NCBI RefSeq assembly: GCF_000188155.2
Contig: NZ_KE124774.1
Location: forward strand, 3,736,934-3,800,933
Length of the DNA: 64,000 nt
DNA from: Methylocystis sp. ATCC 49242
Lineage (GTDB): Bacteria; Pseudomonadota; Alphaproteobacteria; Rhizobiales; Beijerinckiaceae
Reading direction: 5' to 3'
Shown: one piece after another, positions 13,364-34,620 of the stretch
Layout: every line of letters starts with the position of its first letter
Numbering within the stretch: the first letter of the stretch is position 1
Program-made: the position numbers and the translations under genes
The notes under the pieces: generated by a model
Databases searched by the model: none
Told to the model about the DNA's origin: nothing
What the model saw: the letters and a program-made list of their open reading frames with translations, nothing else

Positions 13364-13470
13364 AAGGGCAATGATCAATGACACCCGTTTGTAGGATAGC
13401 GAGGGTCCGGATGAATGTGTAATTTGCGACTGCGAGAGTAGATTGTAAGGCCGTATGTCCGCTTCTGCGA

Positions 13471-13533
13471 CTGAGGTAGCTCGCTCTACGCTGTGCGAGC
13501 GAGGGTTGCTCGGTGTTCCGAGCCGAGCCTCAG
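13471..13533 (+). other. Three-way-junction structure in IS leader
   Basis: CTGAGG (13471-13476) pairs with CCTCAG (13528-13533) and encloses two hairpins: GCTCGC/GCGAGC (13479-13484 with 13495-13500) and GCTCGG/CCGAGC (13508-13513 with 13518-13523). It ends 16 nt before the transposase ATG. It could control translation, be a recombinase-binding site or be part of an end-encoded RNA. The same structure is in the right copy at 18294-18356. Confidence 0.5.
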
Positions 13534-13549
13534 CGCAGGAGAGCGAGCC

Positions 13550-14659
13550 ATGGAGCGGTCTACAGAAATTTTTGTTGGGATCGACGTTTCGAAGGCGCGC
13601 AATGCGATTGCCGTCGCCACGGAGGGACGCAGCGGCGAGGTGCGTTATGTCGGTGAAGTTGACTCCTCCGTCGACAGTATGCGTCGCTTGATCAAGCGCA
13701 TTACCGCCAAACACCCGCAGGCACATTTTTGTTATGAAGCCGGACCGACCGGCTACGGCCTGCACCGGCTCATCATTTCCATGGGGTTCGCTTGCTCCGT
13801 CGTGGCGCCCTCGCTCATTCCGCGCAAGCCAGGCGATCGGGTCAAGACCAACCGGCGCGACGCCGTTGCGCTCGCCAAGTTGCTTCGAGCCGGGGAATTG
13901 ACTGCTGTGTGGGCGCCGGACGAAAGCCATGAAGCGATGCGCGATCTGGTGCGCGCTCGATCCGCCGCGGTTGAAACACTGCGTGTGCATCGTCAGCAGG
14001 TGAGCGCATTCATGCTCCGTCACGGTCGGATTTTTCCGCGCAAAACGACTTGGGGCGCTCGTCATCTTCGTTGGCTGCAAGAACAAAAGTTTGATCATCC
14101 AGCCCATCAGATCGCGCTGCAGGAGATGGTCGAAGCCGTGAGAATCTCCAAGGAGCGCGCGGAGCGGCTCGAGGCGGCGATCAAAGAGTTCATACCCCAA
14201 TGGTCGCTGGCGCCTGTGGTCCGGGCGCTCCTGACATTACGCGGGATTGATCTGCTTGTGGCAGTCACCTGCGCCACGGAGCTCGGTGATTTAAGCCGTT
14301 TCGATAATCCGCGTCAGCTTATGGGCTATCTCGGCTTGACCCCGAGTGAACGCTCGACGGGTGACACGGTTCGTCGCGGCGGCATCACCAAGGCCGACAA
14401 CGGACGTGTCCGGCATCTGCTGATTGAAAGCGCCTGGACCTACCGTCATCCGCCAAGGGTCGGAAAAGAGAAGCTCTACAAAATTGAAGCCGCGCCGCCG
14501 CGCGTAAGGGAGATCGCGTGGAAAGCGCAGAGTCGCCTTACAGCTCGCTATCGCGCACTCAGCGCACGCGGCAAAAAGACAACCGTCGTCTGCGTTGCAA
14601 TTGCGCGGGAACTCGTTGGCTTCATGTGGTGCATCGCAAAGGAGGCGCAAGTCGCCTAA
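13550..14659 (+). CDS. IS110-family (IS1111 group) DEDD transposase, copy 1
   Basis: The protein is 369 residues from the ATG at 13550; a start 19 codons earlier lies within the leader structure and is less likely. The N-terminal RuvC-like domain starts FVGIDVSKARNAIAV (first Asp), then CYEAGPTGYGL (Glu) and KTNRRDAVALAKLL (Asp-x-x), giving the DEDD set. The C-terminal transposase_20 domain has LTLRGIDLLVAVT, LMGYLGLTPSERSTGD (with the serine implicated in catalysis) and RRGGITKADNGRVRHLLIE. No lesion is seen. IS110-family recombinases act with an RNA guide encoded in a non-coding end of the element (known for IS621 and IS110/IS1111 relatives). The second copy encodes an identical protein. 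Confidence 0.93.
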   Translation: MERSTEIFVGIDVSKARNAIAVATEGRSGEVRYVGEVDSSVDSMRRLIKRITAKHPQAHFCYEAGPTGYGLHRLIISMGFACSVVAPSLIPRKPGDRVKTNRRDAVALAKLLRAGELTAVWAPDESHEAMRDLVRARSAAVETLRVHRQQVSAFMLRHGRIFPRKTTWGARHLRWLQEQKFDHPAHQIALQEMVEAVRISKERAERLEAAIKEFIPQWSLAPVVRALLTLRGIDLLVAVTCATELGDLSRFDNPRQLMGYLGLTPSERSTGDTVRRGGITKADNGRVRHLLIESAWTYRHPPRVGKEKLYKIEAAPPRVREIAWKAQSRLTARYRALSARGKKTTVVCVAIARELVGFMWCIAKEAQVA

Positions 14660-14934
14660 GCGACGGTTGATTGTCCGCTCGCGCATGGGCGGGGACTGGA
14701 TCACGGCAGGGGAATACCCGTCAGACGCTTTGTGGCCGGCGACAGCCGACGCCCGATGTAAGATAGGGAAAGCCCCAGACGCATTTTCGGGAATGCGGTA
14801 ACCAACCCGCGCATAAGAGCTTGATCACCGACGTCTTTCAGATCCAGTCCCTACCCCTGCGCGATAACCTTCCCTTGACGCTGCTGCCCGTGGCGCGAAG
14901 TCGCTCGTCAAAATTGTTGACTGCGGACATAAGA
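14660..14934 (+). ncRNA. Candidate guide (bridge) RNA region at IS right end
   Basis: About 275 nt between the transposase stop and the element's right end hold no coding frame, although they are identical in the two copies. In IS1111-group elements the bridge RNA is encoded in this right-hand non-coding end. Several self-complementary stretches are visible, for example GTCCGC with GGCGGGGAC near 14675-14695. The boundaries, the strand of transcription and the target- and donor-binding loops cannot be fixed by eye. The counterpart in the other copy is 16893-17167. Confidence 0.4.
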
Positions 14935-14943
14935 GCGCTGCTT

Positions 14944-15963
14944 TCAGGCCACGTCTCTGAGGTCGGTGTGCGGGGCGTAGGCCCAGGGCATGAACTCGTC
15001 GAGCTTGCTCATGAGATGGCCGTTGACGATCTTCGTGAGGACGTCGGCCATGTGGGCCTGCGGATCGACGCCATTGAGTTTGCTGGTCTCGACGAGCGAG
15101 GCGGCGATCGCCCAATTTTCGGCCCCGCCGTCGGAGCCGGCGAAGAGCGCATTCTTGCGATTGAGCGCGATGGGGCGAATGGCGCGCTCGACGATGTTGG
15201 AGTCGATCTCGATGCGCCCGTCGTCGATGAAGCGCGTCAGGCCGTCCCAGCGCGAGAGGGCGTAGCGGATCGCCTCGGCGAGCCTGGTCTTCTGGCTGAT
15301 CAGCGCGAGCTTTTCACGCAGCCATGGCTCGAGGGCGTCGAGAATGGGGCGGGATTTTTCCTGCCGCGCGTCACGACGCTCGTCGGGGCTGCGTCCGCGG
15401 ATGTCGCTCTCGATGGCATAGAGGGCGCCAATGCGCTTGAGCGCTTGCGTAGCGATCGGCGCCGCGCCAACGGCGGCGAGTTCATGGAAGCGCCGGCGGA
15501 CATGCGACCAGCAGAAGGCGAGCGACACGCTGTTCTTCGGCGCCAGCGCGCGATAGCCGGCATAGCCGTCCACCTGCACGACGCTCGGAAACATCCTCGC
15601 CGATCTTGTGCAGCAGTCCCTTGCAGCAGAGACAAGTCTTCTCGTCGATGTCGACGATGGTTTCGATGCACGGCAGATGCGCCGGCAGCGCGCGACGGTT
15701 CGTGCGGCGCTTTCTGGCCGCCTTCTCGCGTTCGGCGGCGGATGTTGCTTCCGTCGCCGCCGCCGCGCCGGCCTCCGTCTGCTCGACCTCTTCGTGCGCC
15801 AGCAGCATCTGGCCTTCGGGAAGCGTTCTGCGCGCCGTCCGAAGCGATGGCGCTGCATCTCCTTGATGATCCGAACGAGGCGCTCGTTGCGCGCCCGCTC
15901 GGCGAGAAGCATCGCCTTCAGTTCGCTCGGATCGTCGGGAAGCGTCTCGATCGCCTGCGCCAT
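14944..15963 (-). pseudogene. tnpC: IS66 transposase TnpC with frameshift and internal deletion
   Basis: The frame starts MAQAIETLPDDPSELKAM (leucine-zipper-like N-terminus) and ends in a normal IS66 C-terminus (GGAENWAIAASLVETSKLNG...). After FGRRAERFPK it leaves frame: the expected GQMLLAHEEVEQTEA lies in another frame for about 80 residues. About 165 residues, including most of the first half of the DDE catalytic domain, are then missing. The junction near 15580-15590 fuses GEDVSER directly to VVQVDGYAGY; the intact order is seen in copy 2 at 33079-34530. The net result stays open by chance but cannot encode an active transposase. Confidence 0.88.
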
Positions 15964-16030
15964 AACCGCAGAAGATCATATTCTCCGCCGCCTTTCGATA
16001 CGCTTCGACGCCCCGATTCACTGTGTCGCA

Positions 16031-16387
16031 TCATCCCGGCAAGGCCGGCGCCGGCGTCTCTTTCGCGCAGTGGACGCGTCGCCAGTCGAGCCCCTCCAGC
16101 AGCGCCGAAAATTGCGCCGCCGACAGACGCATGACTCCGTCTTCGATCTTGGGCCAGCGGAACTCCCCGTCCTCCAGCCGCTTGGCGAAGAGGCGCACGC
16201 CCGCGCCGTCCCAGAAGACCAGCTTGATGCGGTCGGCGCGCCTGGCGCGAAAGACGTAGATCGCGCCGTCGAAGGGATCGCATTGCATCGTCTCGCGCAC
16301 CAGCGCCGCGAGACCCTCCGCGCCTTTGCGGAAGTCGACCGGCTTCGTCGCCACCATCACGCGCACCGCGCCCGTCGGGCCGATCAC
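16031..16387 (-). CDS. tnpB: IS66 TnpB (Orf2) protein
   Basis: The GTG start at 16387 overlaps the tnpA stop (GTGA), the usual coupled arrangement in IS66. The product (118 residues) begins VIGPTGAVRVMVATKPVDFR and carries KGAEGLAALVRE, DPFDGAIYVFRARRADRIK and the FWDGAGVRLFAKRLEDGEF core of the TnpB family, ending APALPG. TnpB is required for IS66 transposition, but its biochemistry is unclear. The copy is intact although the adjacent tnpC is not. Confidence 0.9.
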   Translation of the reverse strand: MIGPTGAVRVMVATKPVDFRKGAEGLAALVRETMQCDPFDGAIYVFRARRADRIKLVFWDGAGVRLFAKRLEDGEFRWPKIEDGVMRLSAAQFSALLEGLDWRRVHCAKETPAPALPG

Positions 16388-16818
16388 TTCGCCCCCGGCG
16401 AGGTTCGCAGCGCGCGAAGGATCGCCGTCGCCATGCCGATGTCCGCGTCGCGCCAGATCCACACATGCGTCTCGCCGATCTCGATCTCCACGACCGGAGC
16501 GGCGGCCTCCGTTTTCGGCGCAGGCGCCGGCGCGCGCACGGCGGCGCCGCTGTTCTCCGTAATCGCCGGAACAAATGGCGGGACGCCCTCCGCCTCAGCC
16601 CTGCGGCGCGCCTCCCTTCGCCAGGTGAAGAGTTGCTGTGGCGTCGCGCCATGTCGATGCGCGACCTGCGAGACGACCGCGTCGGGAGCCAGCGACTCTT
16701 CGACCGCCAGCGCCTTCTCGTCCTCAGACCACCGGCGCCGCCCGCCAGCTCCAGTGATTACCTCGATGCGCCGTAACCCGGAGCCGTTCGGCTCAAGCGA
16801 AGGATCAAGTCTGGACAC
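16384..16818 (-). CDS. tnpA: IS66 TnpA (Orf1) helix-turn-helix protein
   Basis: The GTG start at 16818 matches the start used in copy 2 (both read VSRLD/VSRLN). The product is 144 residues. The N-terminal HTH reads RRRWSEDEKALAVEESL, then VVSQVAHRHGATPQQLFTWRREA, typical of IS66/IS3-type OrfA DNA-binding domains. A proline/alanine linker leads to a C-terminal VWIWRDADIGMATAILRAL motif. It overlaps tnpB by 4 nt. Confidence 0.88.
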   Translation of the reverse strand: MSRLDPSLEPNGSGLRRIEVITGAGGRRRWSEDEKALAVEESLAPDAVVSQVAHRHGATPQQLFTWRREARRRAEAEGVPPFVPAITENSGAAVRAPAPAPKTEAAAPVVEIEIGETHVWIWRDADIGMATAILRALRTSPGAK

Positions 16819-16886
16819 AAGCCTTATCTCCAAATCAGGAGATCAGACTCGTCGCTTTAATCTCGCGTTTGAAGGTGGGGCCGTAA

Positions 16887-18382
16887 CAGCGCTCTTATGT
16901 CCGCAGTCAACAATTTTGACGAGCGACTTCGCGCCACGGGCAGCAGCGTCAAGGGAAGGTTATCGCGCAGGGGTAGGGACTGGATCTGAAAGACGTCGGT
17001 GATCAAGCTCTTATGCGCGGGTTGGTTACCGCATTCCCGAAAATGCGTCTGGGGCTTTCCCTATCTTACATCGGGCGTCGGCTGTCGCCGGCCACAAAGC
17101 GTCTGACGGGTATTCCCCTGCCGTGATCCAGTCCCCGCCCATGCGCGAGCGGACAATCAACCGTCGCTTAGGCGACTTGCGCCTCCTTTGCGATGCACCA
17201 CATGAAGCCAACGAGTTCCCGCGCAATTGCAACGCAGACGACGGTTGTCTTTTTGCCGCGTGCGCTGAGTGCGCGATAGCGAGCTGTAAGGCGACTCTGC
17301 GCTTTCCACGCGATCTCCCTTACGCGCGGCGGCGCGGCTTCAATTTTGTAGAGCTTCTCTTTTCCGACCCTTGGCGGATGACGGTAGGTCCAGGCGCTTT
17401 CAATCAGCAGATGCCGGACACGTCCGTTGTCGGCCTTGGTGATGCCGCCGCGACGAACCGTGTCACCCGTCGAGCGTTCACTCGGGGTCAAGCCGAGATA
17501 GCCCATAAGCTGACGCGGATTATCGAAACGGCTTAAATCACCGAGCTCCGTGGCGCAGGTGACTGCCACAAGCAGATCAATCCCGCGTAATGTCAGGAGC
17601 GCCCGGACCACAGGCGCCAGCGACCATTGGGGTATGAACTCTTTGATCGCCGCCTCGAGCCGCTCCGCGCGCTCCTTGGAGATTCTCACGGCTTCGACCA
17701 TCTCCTGCAGCGCGATCTGATGGGCTGGATGATCAAACTTTTGTTCTTGCAGCCAACGAAGATGACGAGCGCCCCAAGTCGTTTTGCGCGGAAAAATCCG
17801 ACCGTGACGGAGCATGAATGCGCTCACCTGCTGACGATGCACACGCAGTGTTTCAACCGCGGCGGATCGAGCGCGCACCAGATCGCGCATCGCTTCATGG
17901 CTTTCGTCCGGCGCCCACACAGCAGTCAATTCCCCGGCTCGAAGCAACTTGGCGAGCGCAACGGCGTCGCGCCGGTTGGTCTTGACCCGATCGCCTGGCT
18001 TGCGCGGAATGAGCGAGGGCGCCACGACGGAGCAAGCGAACCCCATGGAAATGATGAGCCGGTGCAGGCCGTAGCCGGTCGGTCCGGCTTCATAACAAAA
18101 ATGTGCCTGCGGGTGTTTGGCGGTAATGCGCTTGATCAAGCGACGCATACTGTCGACGGAGGAGTCAACTTCACCGACATAACGCACCTCGCCGCTGCGT
18201 CCCTCCGTGGCGACGGCAATCGCATTGCGCGCCTTCGAAACGTCGATCCCAACAAAAATTTCTGTAGACCGCTCCATGGCTCGCTCTCCTGCGCTGAGGC
18301 TCGGCTCGGAACACCGAGCAACCCTCGCTCGCACAGCGTAGAGCGAGCTACCTCAGTCGCAGAAGCGGACATACGGCCTTAC
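16887..18382 (-). mobile_element. IS110/IS1111-type element, right copy (inverted)
   Basis: Inverted duplicate of 13445-14940; coordinates of matching positions add to 31827, and the encoded transposases are identical. The element proper is about 16893-18377, bounded by CAGCGC (inner half of the IS66 repeat) and CTTAC (outer half). Its outer flank differs from that of the left copy immediately after CTTAC, so the shared repeat ends exactly at the IS66 terminal sequence. Confidence 0.85.
17168..18277 (-). CDS. IS110-family (IS1111 group) DEDD transposase, copy 2
   Basis: The 369-residue product is identical to the one at 13550-14659, with the same start choice (ATG at 18277 behind the leader structure 18294-18356). 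All DEDD residues (GIDVSK, YEAGPTG, NRRDAVALA) and the serine of PSERSTGD are retained. The lack of divergence implies a recent second insertion or gene conversion between the two copies. Confidence 0.93.
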   Translation of the reverse strand: MERSTEIFVGIDVSKARNAIAVATEGRSGEVRYVGEVDSSVDSMRRLIKRITAKHPQAHFCYEAGPTGYGLHRLIISMGFACSVVAPSLIPRKPGDRVKTNRRDAVALAKLLRAGELTAVWAPDESHEAMRDLVRARSAAVETLRVHRQQVSAFMLRHGRIFPRKTTWGARHLRWLQEQKFDHPAHQIALQEMVEAVRISKERAERLEAAIKEFIPQWSLAPVVRALLTLRGIDLLVAVTCATELGDLSRFDNPRQLMGYLGLTPSERSTGDTVRRGGITKADNGRVRHLLIESAWTYRHPPRVGKEKLYKIEAAPPRVREIAWKAQSRLTARYRALSARGKKTTVVCVAIARELVGFMWCIAKEAQVA

Positions 18383-31915: not shown

Positions 31916-32226
31916 AAGTTCAGGGGCAGGTCAAGCGCAATCAACGATGTAGTCTCGACTTTGTGTCGGACACGCTCAGCGACGGCCGTCGCTTTCGCGT
32001 GCTCGTCGTGGTCAACGATTTCACCCGGGAATGTCTGGCGCTTGCCGTGGACACGTCGATCGGCGGTCGTCGCGTTGCGCGAGAGCTCGACGCGCTGATC
32101 GCCCAGCGCGGCAAGACGCTGATGATTGTCAGCGACAACGGAACGGAACGTAAGCGATGTCCTGACCTCACCTTCAAAACGGGAAGCGACAGCTGCGAGT
32201 CTGATCCTCTGCAGGAGGTAAGGCTT

Positions 32227-33078: not shown

Positions 33079-34620
33079 ATGGCGCAGGCGATCGAGAAAC
33101 TTCCCGACGACCCGAACGAGCTGAAGGCGATGCTGCTCGCCGAGCGGGCGCGCAACGAGCGCCTCGTTCAGATCATCAAGGAGATGCAGCGCCATCGCTT
33201 TGGGCGTCGCGCTGAGACGCTCCCCGAGGACCAGATGCTGCTCGCGCTCGAAGAGGTCGAGCAGACGGAAGCCGTCGCAGCCGCGGAAGCAGAAGCCAGC
33301 TCTGCCCCTGAACGTGAGAAGGCGGCCAGAAAGTGCCGCACCAACCGGGGCGCGTTGCCCGCACATCTGCCGCGCGTCGAGACGATCGTTGATATCGAGG
33401 ACAAGGCCTGCCCCTGCTGCAAGGGCGTCCTGCACCAGATCGGCGAAGATGTTTCCGAGCGGCTCGATGTCGTTCCGGCGCAGTTCGGGGTGCTTTTGAC
33501 GCGTCGGCCAAAATACGCCTGCCGGGCCTGTGAGGGCGCGGTGGTGCAGGCGCCCGCTCCGGCACGACTGATCGAGGGTGGCCTGCCCACCGAGGCGACA
33601 GTCGCCCATGTGCTGGTCTCGAAATACGCCGATCATCTTCCCCTCTACCGCCAGGCGCAGATCTACGCCCGACAGGGGATTGCGCTCGACCATTCGACGC
33701 TCGCCGACTGGGTCGGACGCGCCGCTTGGCATTTGCGGCCCCTGCACGAGCGCCTCCTCGAACAGATTAGGGCTTCCACGAAAATCTTCGCCGACGAGAC
33801 GAGGGCGCCGGTGCTCGACCCCGGACGCGGGCGCACCAAGACCGGCCAGCTCTGGGCTTACGCAAGAGACGATCGGCGATGGGGCGGCGCCGATCCGCCA
33901 CTCGCCGTCTATGTCTATGCGCAAAACCGCAAGTCAGAGCAGCCGCTCGTCCATCTTGCCGGCTTCACGGGCATCGTGCAGGTCGACGGTTACGCCGGCT
34001 ATCAGGCGCTGGCGCAGAAGAACAGCGTGTCGCTCGCCTTCTGCTGGGCGCATGTCCGCCGGCGCTTTTACGAACTCGCCGCAGCGGGGCCCGCGCCGAT
34101 CGCTGCGCAAGCGTTCGAGCGCATCGGCGCGCTCTATTCCATTGAAAGCCAAATCCGCTGTCGGAGTCCTGGCGAGCGTCGTGATGCGCGACAGGAGAAA
34201 TCCCGTCCCATCCTCGACGCGCTTGAACCCTGGCTGCGCGAGAAACTCGCGCTGATCAGTCAGAAGACCAGGCTCGCCGAGGCGATCCGCTATGCGTTAT
34301 CGCGCTGGGACGGCCTGACGCGCTTCCTCGACGACGGGCGCTTCGAGATCGACTCCAACATCGTCGAACGCGCGATCCGCCCCATCGCGCTCAATCGCAA
34401 GAACGCGCTCTTCGCGGGCTCAGACGGCGGCGCCGAGAACTGGGCGATCGTCGCCTCGCTCATCGAAACGTGCAACCTCAATGGCGTCGATCCGCTCGCC
34501 TACATGACCGACGTGCTCATCAAGATTGTCAACTGTCAATGGCGGGGACAAAGTGTGCATGAAGGCGGGGTAAAAGTGTACCGGTCTGGTTTCGAGAAAA
34601 GGGCCGCACGGCCCTTGTAG
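33079..34620 (+). CDS. tnpC: IS66 transposase TnpC, copy 2, C-terminus replaced by IS21-encoded tail
   Basis: The ATG at 33079 (MAQAIEKLPDDPNELKAM) is the family start; the open frame extends upstream within tnpB. The order is: zipper, the acidic linker, zinc-finger cysteines (ACPCCKG ... YACRACEGA), the DDE_Tnp_IS66 core (STLADWVGRAAWHL, KIFADETRAPVLDPG, IVQVDGYAGYQAL, FCWAHVRRRFYELA) and the C-terminal NIVERAIRPIALNRKNALFAG with SDGGAENWAI. After TDVLIKIVN the native end is lost: 28 residues from the IS21 left end (CQWRGQSVHE... to AARPL) replace the usual tail. All catalytic parts are present, but the element lacks its right end, so it cannot move as a unit. Confidence 0.9.
   Translation: MAQAIEKLPDDPNELKAMLLAERARNERLVQIIKEMQRHRFGRRAETLPEDQMLLALEEVEQTEAVAAAEAEASSAPEREKAARKCRTNRGALPAHLPRVETIVDIEDKACPCCKGVLHQIGEDVSERLDVVPAQFGVLLTRRPKYACRACEGAVVQAPAPARLIEGGLPTEATVAHVLVSKYADHLPLYRQAQIYARQGIALDHSTLADWVGRAAWHLRPLHERLLEQIRASTKIFADETRAPVLDPGRGRTKTGQLWAYARDDRRWGGADPPLAVYVYAQNRKSEQPLVHLAGFTGIVQVDGYAGYQALAQKNSVSLAFCWAHVRRRFYELAAAGPAPIAAQAFERIGALYSIESQIRCRSPGERRDARQEKSRPILDALEPWLREKLALISQKTRLAEAIRYALSRWDGLTRFLDDGRFEIDSNIVERAIRPIALNRKNALFAGSDGGAENWAIVASLIETCNLNGVDPLAYMTDVLIKIVNCQWRGQSVHEGGVKVYRSGFEKRAARPL

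Follow-up and report, generated by a model that had tools for sequence, protein, structure and literature searches.

It is already known that some IS1111 elements attack the ends of other mobile DNA; IS1383, for example, is an IS1111-type insertion sequence (IS), and its partner IS1384 is a member of the IS5 family. The inverted repeats of IS1384 are the specific integration site of IS1383, and IS4321 and IS5075 insert into the terminal repeats of transposons of the Tn21 type, as cited in PMC11208160; the IS4321 target is also mentioned in PMC11187229. The locus described here lies in a window of 64,000 nucleotides from Methylocystis sp. ATCC 49242 (contig NZ_KE124774.1, positions 3,736,934 to 3,800,933), where two copies of an IS1111-type element occupy the two ends of one IS66 element. 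Like IS4321 and IS5075, this IS has entered the ends of another mobile element, but these ends belong to IS66 and not to Tn21-type transposons. The nearest precedent is IS1383, a case of one IS specifically entering the inverted repeats of another, although its target is not IS66. No report of an IS110/IS1111 element targeting IS66 ends was found among the open-licence titles and abstract openings listed, ISfinder and TnPedia being outside the scope, and neither PMC11187229 nor PMC11208160 uses the term "IS66" in its main text.

As for the mechanism, ISEc11, ISKpn4, ISPst6 and ISPa11 are IS1111 elements with an experimentally proven seekRNA, according to the main text of PMC11187229. The Methylocystis element shares with them a non-coding region downstream of the gene, the order of the guides (the match to the top strand is 5′ of that to the bottom strand) and subterminal repeats; it differs in that they insert into a short linear site, attC sites or REP (repetitive extragenic palindromic) sequences, and in being known from its sequence alone. 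The IS621 bridge RNA offers a second comparison, in that it too works with a DEDD recombinase and has RNA loops that hold segments for target and donor; however, IS621 belongs to the IS110 group and its RNA lies mostly in the left end, as described in the main text of PMC11208160, whereas that of the Methylocystis element would lie downstream of the gene. Taken with the evidence given below, it is highly probable that this element is an IS1111-family IS whose DEDD recombinase is guided by RNA to IS66 ends, at GTA/AGCG, with loss of IS66 mobility as the expected outcome. RNA from the downstream non-coding region would direct the recombinase through two guides placed in one loop, GACGCT against the top strand and GTAAGA against the bottom strand, together specifying GTA/AGCG, the conserved start of IS66. 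Insertion would take place in a single orientation, with the left end of the IS outward and without target duplication. Both IS66 ends could be hit because each carries the same start, and the IS66 terminal repeat would be split after 3−5 bp, so that IS66 transposition should stop.

Regarding the arrangement in the window, positions 13445−14940 and 16887−18382 are inverted repeats of 1,496 bp each, 100% complementary and spaced by 1,946 bp, and each has GTAAG on the outer side and GCGCTG on the inner side of the IS1111-type copy. With the IS ends set by the rule of the IS1111 family (7 bp to the left and 3 bp to the right of the subterminal repeat; PMC11187229), copy 1 spans 13448−14933 on the forward strand and copy 2, identical and reversed, 16894−18379 on the reverse strand; each is 1,486 bp long and sits between GTA and AGCG, the 2-bp AG at each border being ambiguous in its ownership, IS or IS66. 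What remains outside are the outer 3 bp of the IS66 ends: GTA at 13445−13447 on the forward strand, which becomes GTAAG when joined to the border AG, and the right end at 18380−18382 on the reverse strand, read as TAC on the forward one. The IS66 body between the copies (14934−16893, reverse strand) carries tnpA, tnpB and a shortened tnpC; its matches to 33217−33461 and 33968−34538 of a second IS66 in the window are directly adjacent, thus it has lost ~500 bp of tnpC and is already defective compared with that second element (32150−34539, forward strand). Domain PF05717 was found at all three host loci with filled IS66 ends (named A, the window, and B and C), and PF03050 and PF13817 at A, in keeping with the TnpB and DDE TnpC genes of the IS66 family.

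The IS gene at 13550−14659 (forward strand; 17168−18277 on the reverse strand in copy 2) encodes a transposase/recombinase of 369 amino acids with the DEDD_Tnp_IS110 and Transposase_20 domains of the IS1111 family (PF01548 and PF02371, both over the cut-off) and a match to NF033542, the IS110 family RNA-guided transposase; its N-terminal part, residues 8−153, matches the solved IS621 and ISCro4 chains by sequence. The subterminal inverted repeats are ATGTCCGC (13455−13462) and GCGGACAT (14923−14930), both given on the forward strand, with AGGCCGT and AAG outside them, which agrees with the 7-bp and 3-bp extensions of the family but is no independent evidence, because this split was itself used to place the ends. 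The perfect repeat has 8 bp, or 9 bp if the preceding T is counted, and is shorter than the 11−13 bp usual in the family. Other traits expected of IS1111 elements are the long non-coding stretch that follows the transposase gene (274 bp, 14660−14933, forward strand) and insertion in one orientation without target duplication, as seen from uninterrupted GTAAGCG ends set against the split ones. The initial annotation had described an identical IS1111-type pair in both ends of one IS66 element and had taken the extremities of the repeats for the two halves of the IS66 end; both statements are correct, and its parallel with IS4321/IS5075 is apt, with IS1383 in IS1384 being closer. Its description of the IS66 at 32150 as intact and starting with GTAAGCG was right about the start only: the right end is lost to an IS21-type element (IstB domain) that cuts it near 34540.

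In the whole host genome the repeat has 17 matches: five full copies, the two halves of a sixth one at locus B, split by an IS21-type element, and ten partial matches with 68−74% identity. Each of the six, whether full or split, is flanked by GTAAG on its left side and by an IS66 end on its right; together they fill both ends of three IS66 elements, namely A in the window, B at L018 and C at L019. IS66 TnpB matches over the cut-off number eight in the genome; six independent insertions into the 16 ends of eight elements, taken as equal, would fill exactly three elements in 56 of 8,008 arrangements, a figure of plain arithmetic to be read with the caveats that one or more of the IS66 ends are missing and that B and C are possibly not independent. 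Near locus C, a decayed fragment (L019, 11922−12341) is 74% identical to the IS and also follows GTAAG; the remaining partial matches have 68−71% identity. The IS21-type element that splits the copy at B (L018, 7686−10339) is 99.2% identical to the one that cuts the IS66 at 34540. A search for the empty site, in which the outer flanks of locus B were compared with 39 genomes of the genus, had no useful outcome.

The same border was read at 32 sites from other genomes whose transposases are 62−93% identical to that of the host: the 10 best of 80 scan loci, six from whole-genome searches (without short partial matches and loci already among the first 10) and 16 plasmid loci out of 60 listed hits, with at least 5,000 records matched. 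Left borders were read by script at 31 of these sites and by eye at L165, and GTAAG is exact at 26 of the 32. On the right, the script could read 24 borders, and in 22 of them the AG is followed by CG; of the other two, L154 has one extra G and L166 is different. IS66 proteins or matching DNA are present on the right side of 15 of the 32 sites and on the left side of three, with two of the 15 calls (L034 and L036) depending on an antisense frame only; a hidden Markov model search of 22 of the relatives' loci gave no further IS66 and left L034 and L036 unconfirmed, and counts of IS66 TnpA are uninformative, as that query was poorly framed (a 27-position model). Judged by these flanks, the link of the relatives to IS66 ends is strong, and it is shown for part of the 32 sites.

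Whether GTAAG and GCG belong to IS66 or to the IS can be decided from target duplications. In the host genome, an uninterrupted IS66 (L031) measures 2,449 bp from GTAAG to CTTAC, has GTAAGCG at both ends and is enclosed by an exact 8-bp duplication, GAAGAGCA. Two singly hit IS66 elements repeat this pattern: in Methylocystis sp. B8 (L033) the exact duplication CTTTCGAC abuts GTAAG, with the IS in the left IS66 end and the right end whole, and on a Methylocystis iwaonis plasmid (L152) the exact duplication GTTCATGT does the same, with the far end of IS66 whole. The IS66 at L152 (1019−5764) is internally shortened, with ~860 bp beyond the IS, which itself holds a further insert beside an annotated istB. 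An 8-bp duplication has a chance of about 1 in 10,000 per hit, and L116 and L151 count as one site among the 38 border scans. On these comparisons, GTAAG belongs to IS66, and the IS is not its source. If GTAAG and GCG were both IS sequence and the association with IS66 accidental, the presence of GTAAG beside nearly all copies would be accounted for, but this is an extremely improbable reading: the bases are present with the exact duplication at an IS66 free of the IS and around the two singly hit ones, the left borders vary (TTAAG, GAAAG, AGAAG, ATAAG), and in sister lineages guide 2 tracks the left flank. The proposal of sequence-directed insertion into IS66 termini, to be checked by collecting copies and aligning their flanks, is thus supported by the GTAAG counts in host and relatives, and the reservation that accompanied it, namely that GTAAG might prove to be IS sequence, is rejected in view of the duplications at L033, L152 and L031. 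The doubly hit elements A, B and C have GTAAG and no duplication; when the outer flanks of the six borders of these three elements were paired by eye, no matching duplications were found. The outer flanks of locus C are another IS110-family element by its domains (L019, 2896−10296); compared with its whole copies (L191 and L192), 107 bp are lost at C, where no 8-bp duplication is left, a loss that would suit an adjacent deletion by IS66.

As for the guide, the region downstream of the transposase gene appears, from the alignment of relatives, to encode a conserved, covarying RNA, predicted at 14679−14864 on the forward strand and comparable to a long seekRNA or bridge RNA. In 21 aligned sequences its fold comprises an outer stem, a loop for the target and a multiloop that holds a donor-like segment; the outer stem, which closes the molecule, has 22 pairs, 12 of them altered on both sides, and over the whole alignment 54 pairs are formed, with 97.2% of the cells paired and 15 pairs altered on both sides. 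Four of the five measures exceed all 500 shuffles. Pairing dropped to 39−47% in all six alignments that were deliberately slid. No match to a known Rfam RNA was obtained up to E = 1, so that identity was rejected. The two guides face each other on opposite sides of a single loop, and the consensus fold has two pairs between them (columns 54−88 and 55−87). Guide 1, GACGCT (14724−14729), is the reverse complement of AGCGTC, and its predicted partner is the top strand in the right half of the target; guide 2, GTAAGA (14758−14763), equals the left target half and would pair with the bottom strand. The RNA would therefore spell GTAAGCG and one or two further bases. The IS1111 family has matches to the two target strands, with the top-strand match first, and they are found here in sequence and in covariation. 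The donor-matching segment CATAAGAG (14812−14819, like the guides on the forward strand) is the same as the right end of the IS and covaries with it in the relatives, where CATAAGAG or CATCAGAG agrees with that end; L036 has ATGAG at both places.

The agreement between guides and flanks was measured on 65 rows. Of 104 loci, 40 failed end parsing and 64 were parsed; 10 parsed rows were dropped for doubtful or truncated ends, and manual reading supplied 11, namely 10 of the failures and L158, for which the script had given an incorrect row. Guide 1 was readable in 50 rows and guide 2, with its left flank, in 48, giving 40 distinct pairs each. Guide 1 matches its own right flank over a mean of 5.35 nt, compared with 3.50 nt for permuted pairs (0 of 2000 permutations as good), and the values with one pair per guide are 5.28 and 3.47 (n = 29); for guide 2 and the left flank they are 4.20 and 3.08 (0 of 2000), a result weakened because the guide 2 strings are incomplete in L038, L153, L161 and L162. 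The effect is small but present within the group at IS66 ends (3.59 against 2.99, 9 of 10000; n = 17 distinct pairs), a test on 25 rows in which L034 and L151 were left out, the guide and first flank bases of L151 being those of L138; L163 scores 0 there because its first guide base differs, and its next six bases match. Guide variants track the bases after CG in L144, L145, L150, L155 and L165. Of two relatives with 62% identity, L145 has guide GTAAGA and flank GTAAG, and L166 has guide GCTAGA and flank ACTAG. In relatives with ~55% identity guide and flank shift together, as in L051 (AGAGTCCG in both), L052 (AGGTTGT), L087 (AGAGCGG) and L055 (AGCTGT). A visible insertion pattern is so tied to a readable RNA guide that spells the start conserved across a large family of transposons, and on the 40 distinct natural guide-flank pairs one could test the targeting rules of IS1111 RNAs and ask whether such elements hold other transposons in check. 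Since attacks on mobile-element ends by IS1111 elements are established, the element falls short of a new type of system; it is a well-supported addition to that set, with a guide that can be read.

It should be noted that a number of observations weigh against RNA-guided insertion into IS66 ends. The host genome contains 350 uninterrupted GTAAGCG heptamers, hence the heptamer alone cannot account for six of six copies in IS66 ends, and a further determinant, or selection against other sites, is required. The left end of the IS66 elements B and C is GTAAGGCG, one base off, and guide 1 of the host fits its own targets partly (GCG, or GCGT at the right end of B and C). Among the relatives, TTAAG, GAAAG, AGAAG, ATAAG and ACTAG occur once each as left border; L035, L131, L150 and L157 deviate from GTAAG, L165 does not have it on the left even though its guide 2 is GTAAGA, and L153, which was not parsed, has no AGCG on the right. 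Weak rows (L050, L060, L153, L154 and L166) match over 2−3 nt. The duplication was found in only two of the 38 border scans: it is missing at all seven host-genome borders and, among the 17 relatives' sites that extend 4.6 kb or more downstream, at 15, as well as at three other scanned IS66 stretches of the host (L029, L030 and L032). Regarding the RNA, the alignment used for its tests is also the one from which the structure was predicted, and the fifth measure, further pair types, was equalled in 86 of the 500 shuffles. Finally, IS66 sequence was not found to the right of 17 of the 32 relatives' sites, 10 of which have less than 2 kb of flank; the other seven (L155, L159, L160, L162, L164, L165 and L166) have more than 3 kb. 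As a side observation, the left end of the B and C elements (L018, 3915, and L019) has the sequence GTAAGGCGTG, with one base more than the usual GTAAGCG, and the IS is at the same place.

The 350 heptamers and the 17 sites without IS66 on the right would be expected if the IS inserted at any GTAAGCG-like site and the IS66 ends were harmless places where insertions survive. This explanation deserves attention but is unlikely, given that all six host copies are in IS66 ends and that the guide variants track bases beyond CG. Less likely still, by a wide measure, is a single entry of the IS into an IS66 end, followed by its spread as a passenger of IS66, so that the association is inherited. The B and C composites, 99.97% identical over 3,166 bp, and the perfect duplication that encloses IS66 plus IS at L033 are of the kind such spread would leave; conversely, distinct IS66 types have been hit within one genome (A compared with B and C), and an IS66 end split after 3−5 bp should be unusable. 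In addition, the histories of IS and IS66 are discordant in strain MJC1: L116 and L138 have right IS66 flanks identical over 1,500 bp and IS copies that differ at nine positions, and L131 and L138 have IS copies that differ at two positions and right flanks without a match, no IS66 gene being found within 1.5 kb on the right of L131. This discordance points to independent insertions, and hitchhiking on IS66 was rejected on this ground as a general cause.

A sister lineage extends the comparison to a different target. In Paracoccus yeei (L188, 3358−8086), two copies encoding the same protein flank, in opposite orientation, an element whose protein is annotated as IS5 family, with IS1182 as another candidate name, and has the DUF772 and DDE_Tnp_1 domains. 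The same arrangement at both ends is found by position on one Rhodobacteraceae contig, covered by the overlapping loci L070 and L073, hence the occupation of both ends recurs. In the 70 more distant scan loci (L043−L112), the right border is CAGG in 11, as a script pattern; a transposase like that between the P. yeei copies is on the right side of 11 and on the left side of none, and both traits are combined in nine, while L048 and L084 have the border AACAGG and no P. yeei-like transposase. These data hint, tentatively and with the chances somewhat below even, at a lineage of RNA-guided hyperparasites, in which sister branches of one IS1111 clade would have guides adapted to the ends of IS families that are not related (IS66, and the IS5-annotated family in the relatives from Rhodobacterales and Bradyrhizobium), would tend to fill both ends and track their variation, and might act as natural brakes on transposons. 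As a last observation, among L062−L079 and L188, relatives with ~55% identity sit at the ends of IS5-annotated elements, and their guides are different ones (TAG / CAGG).

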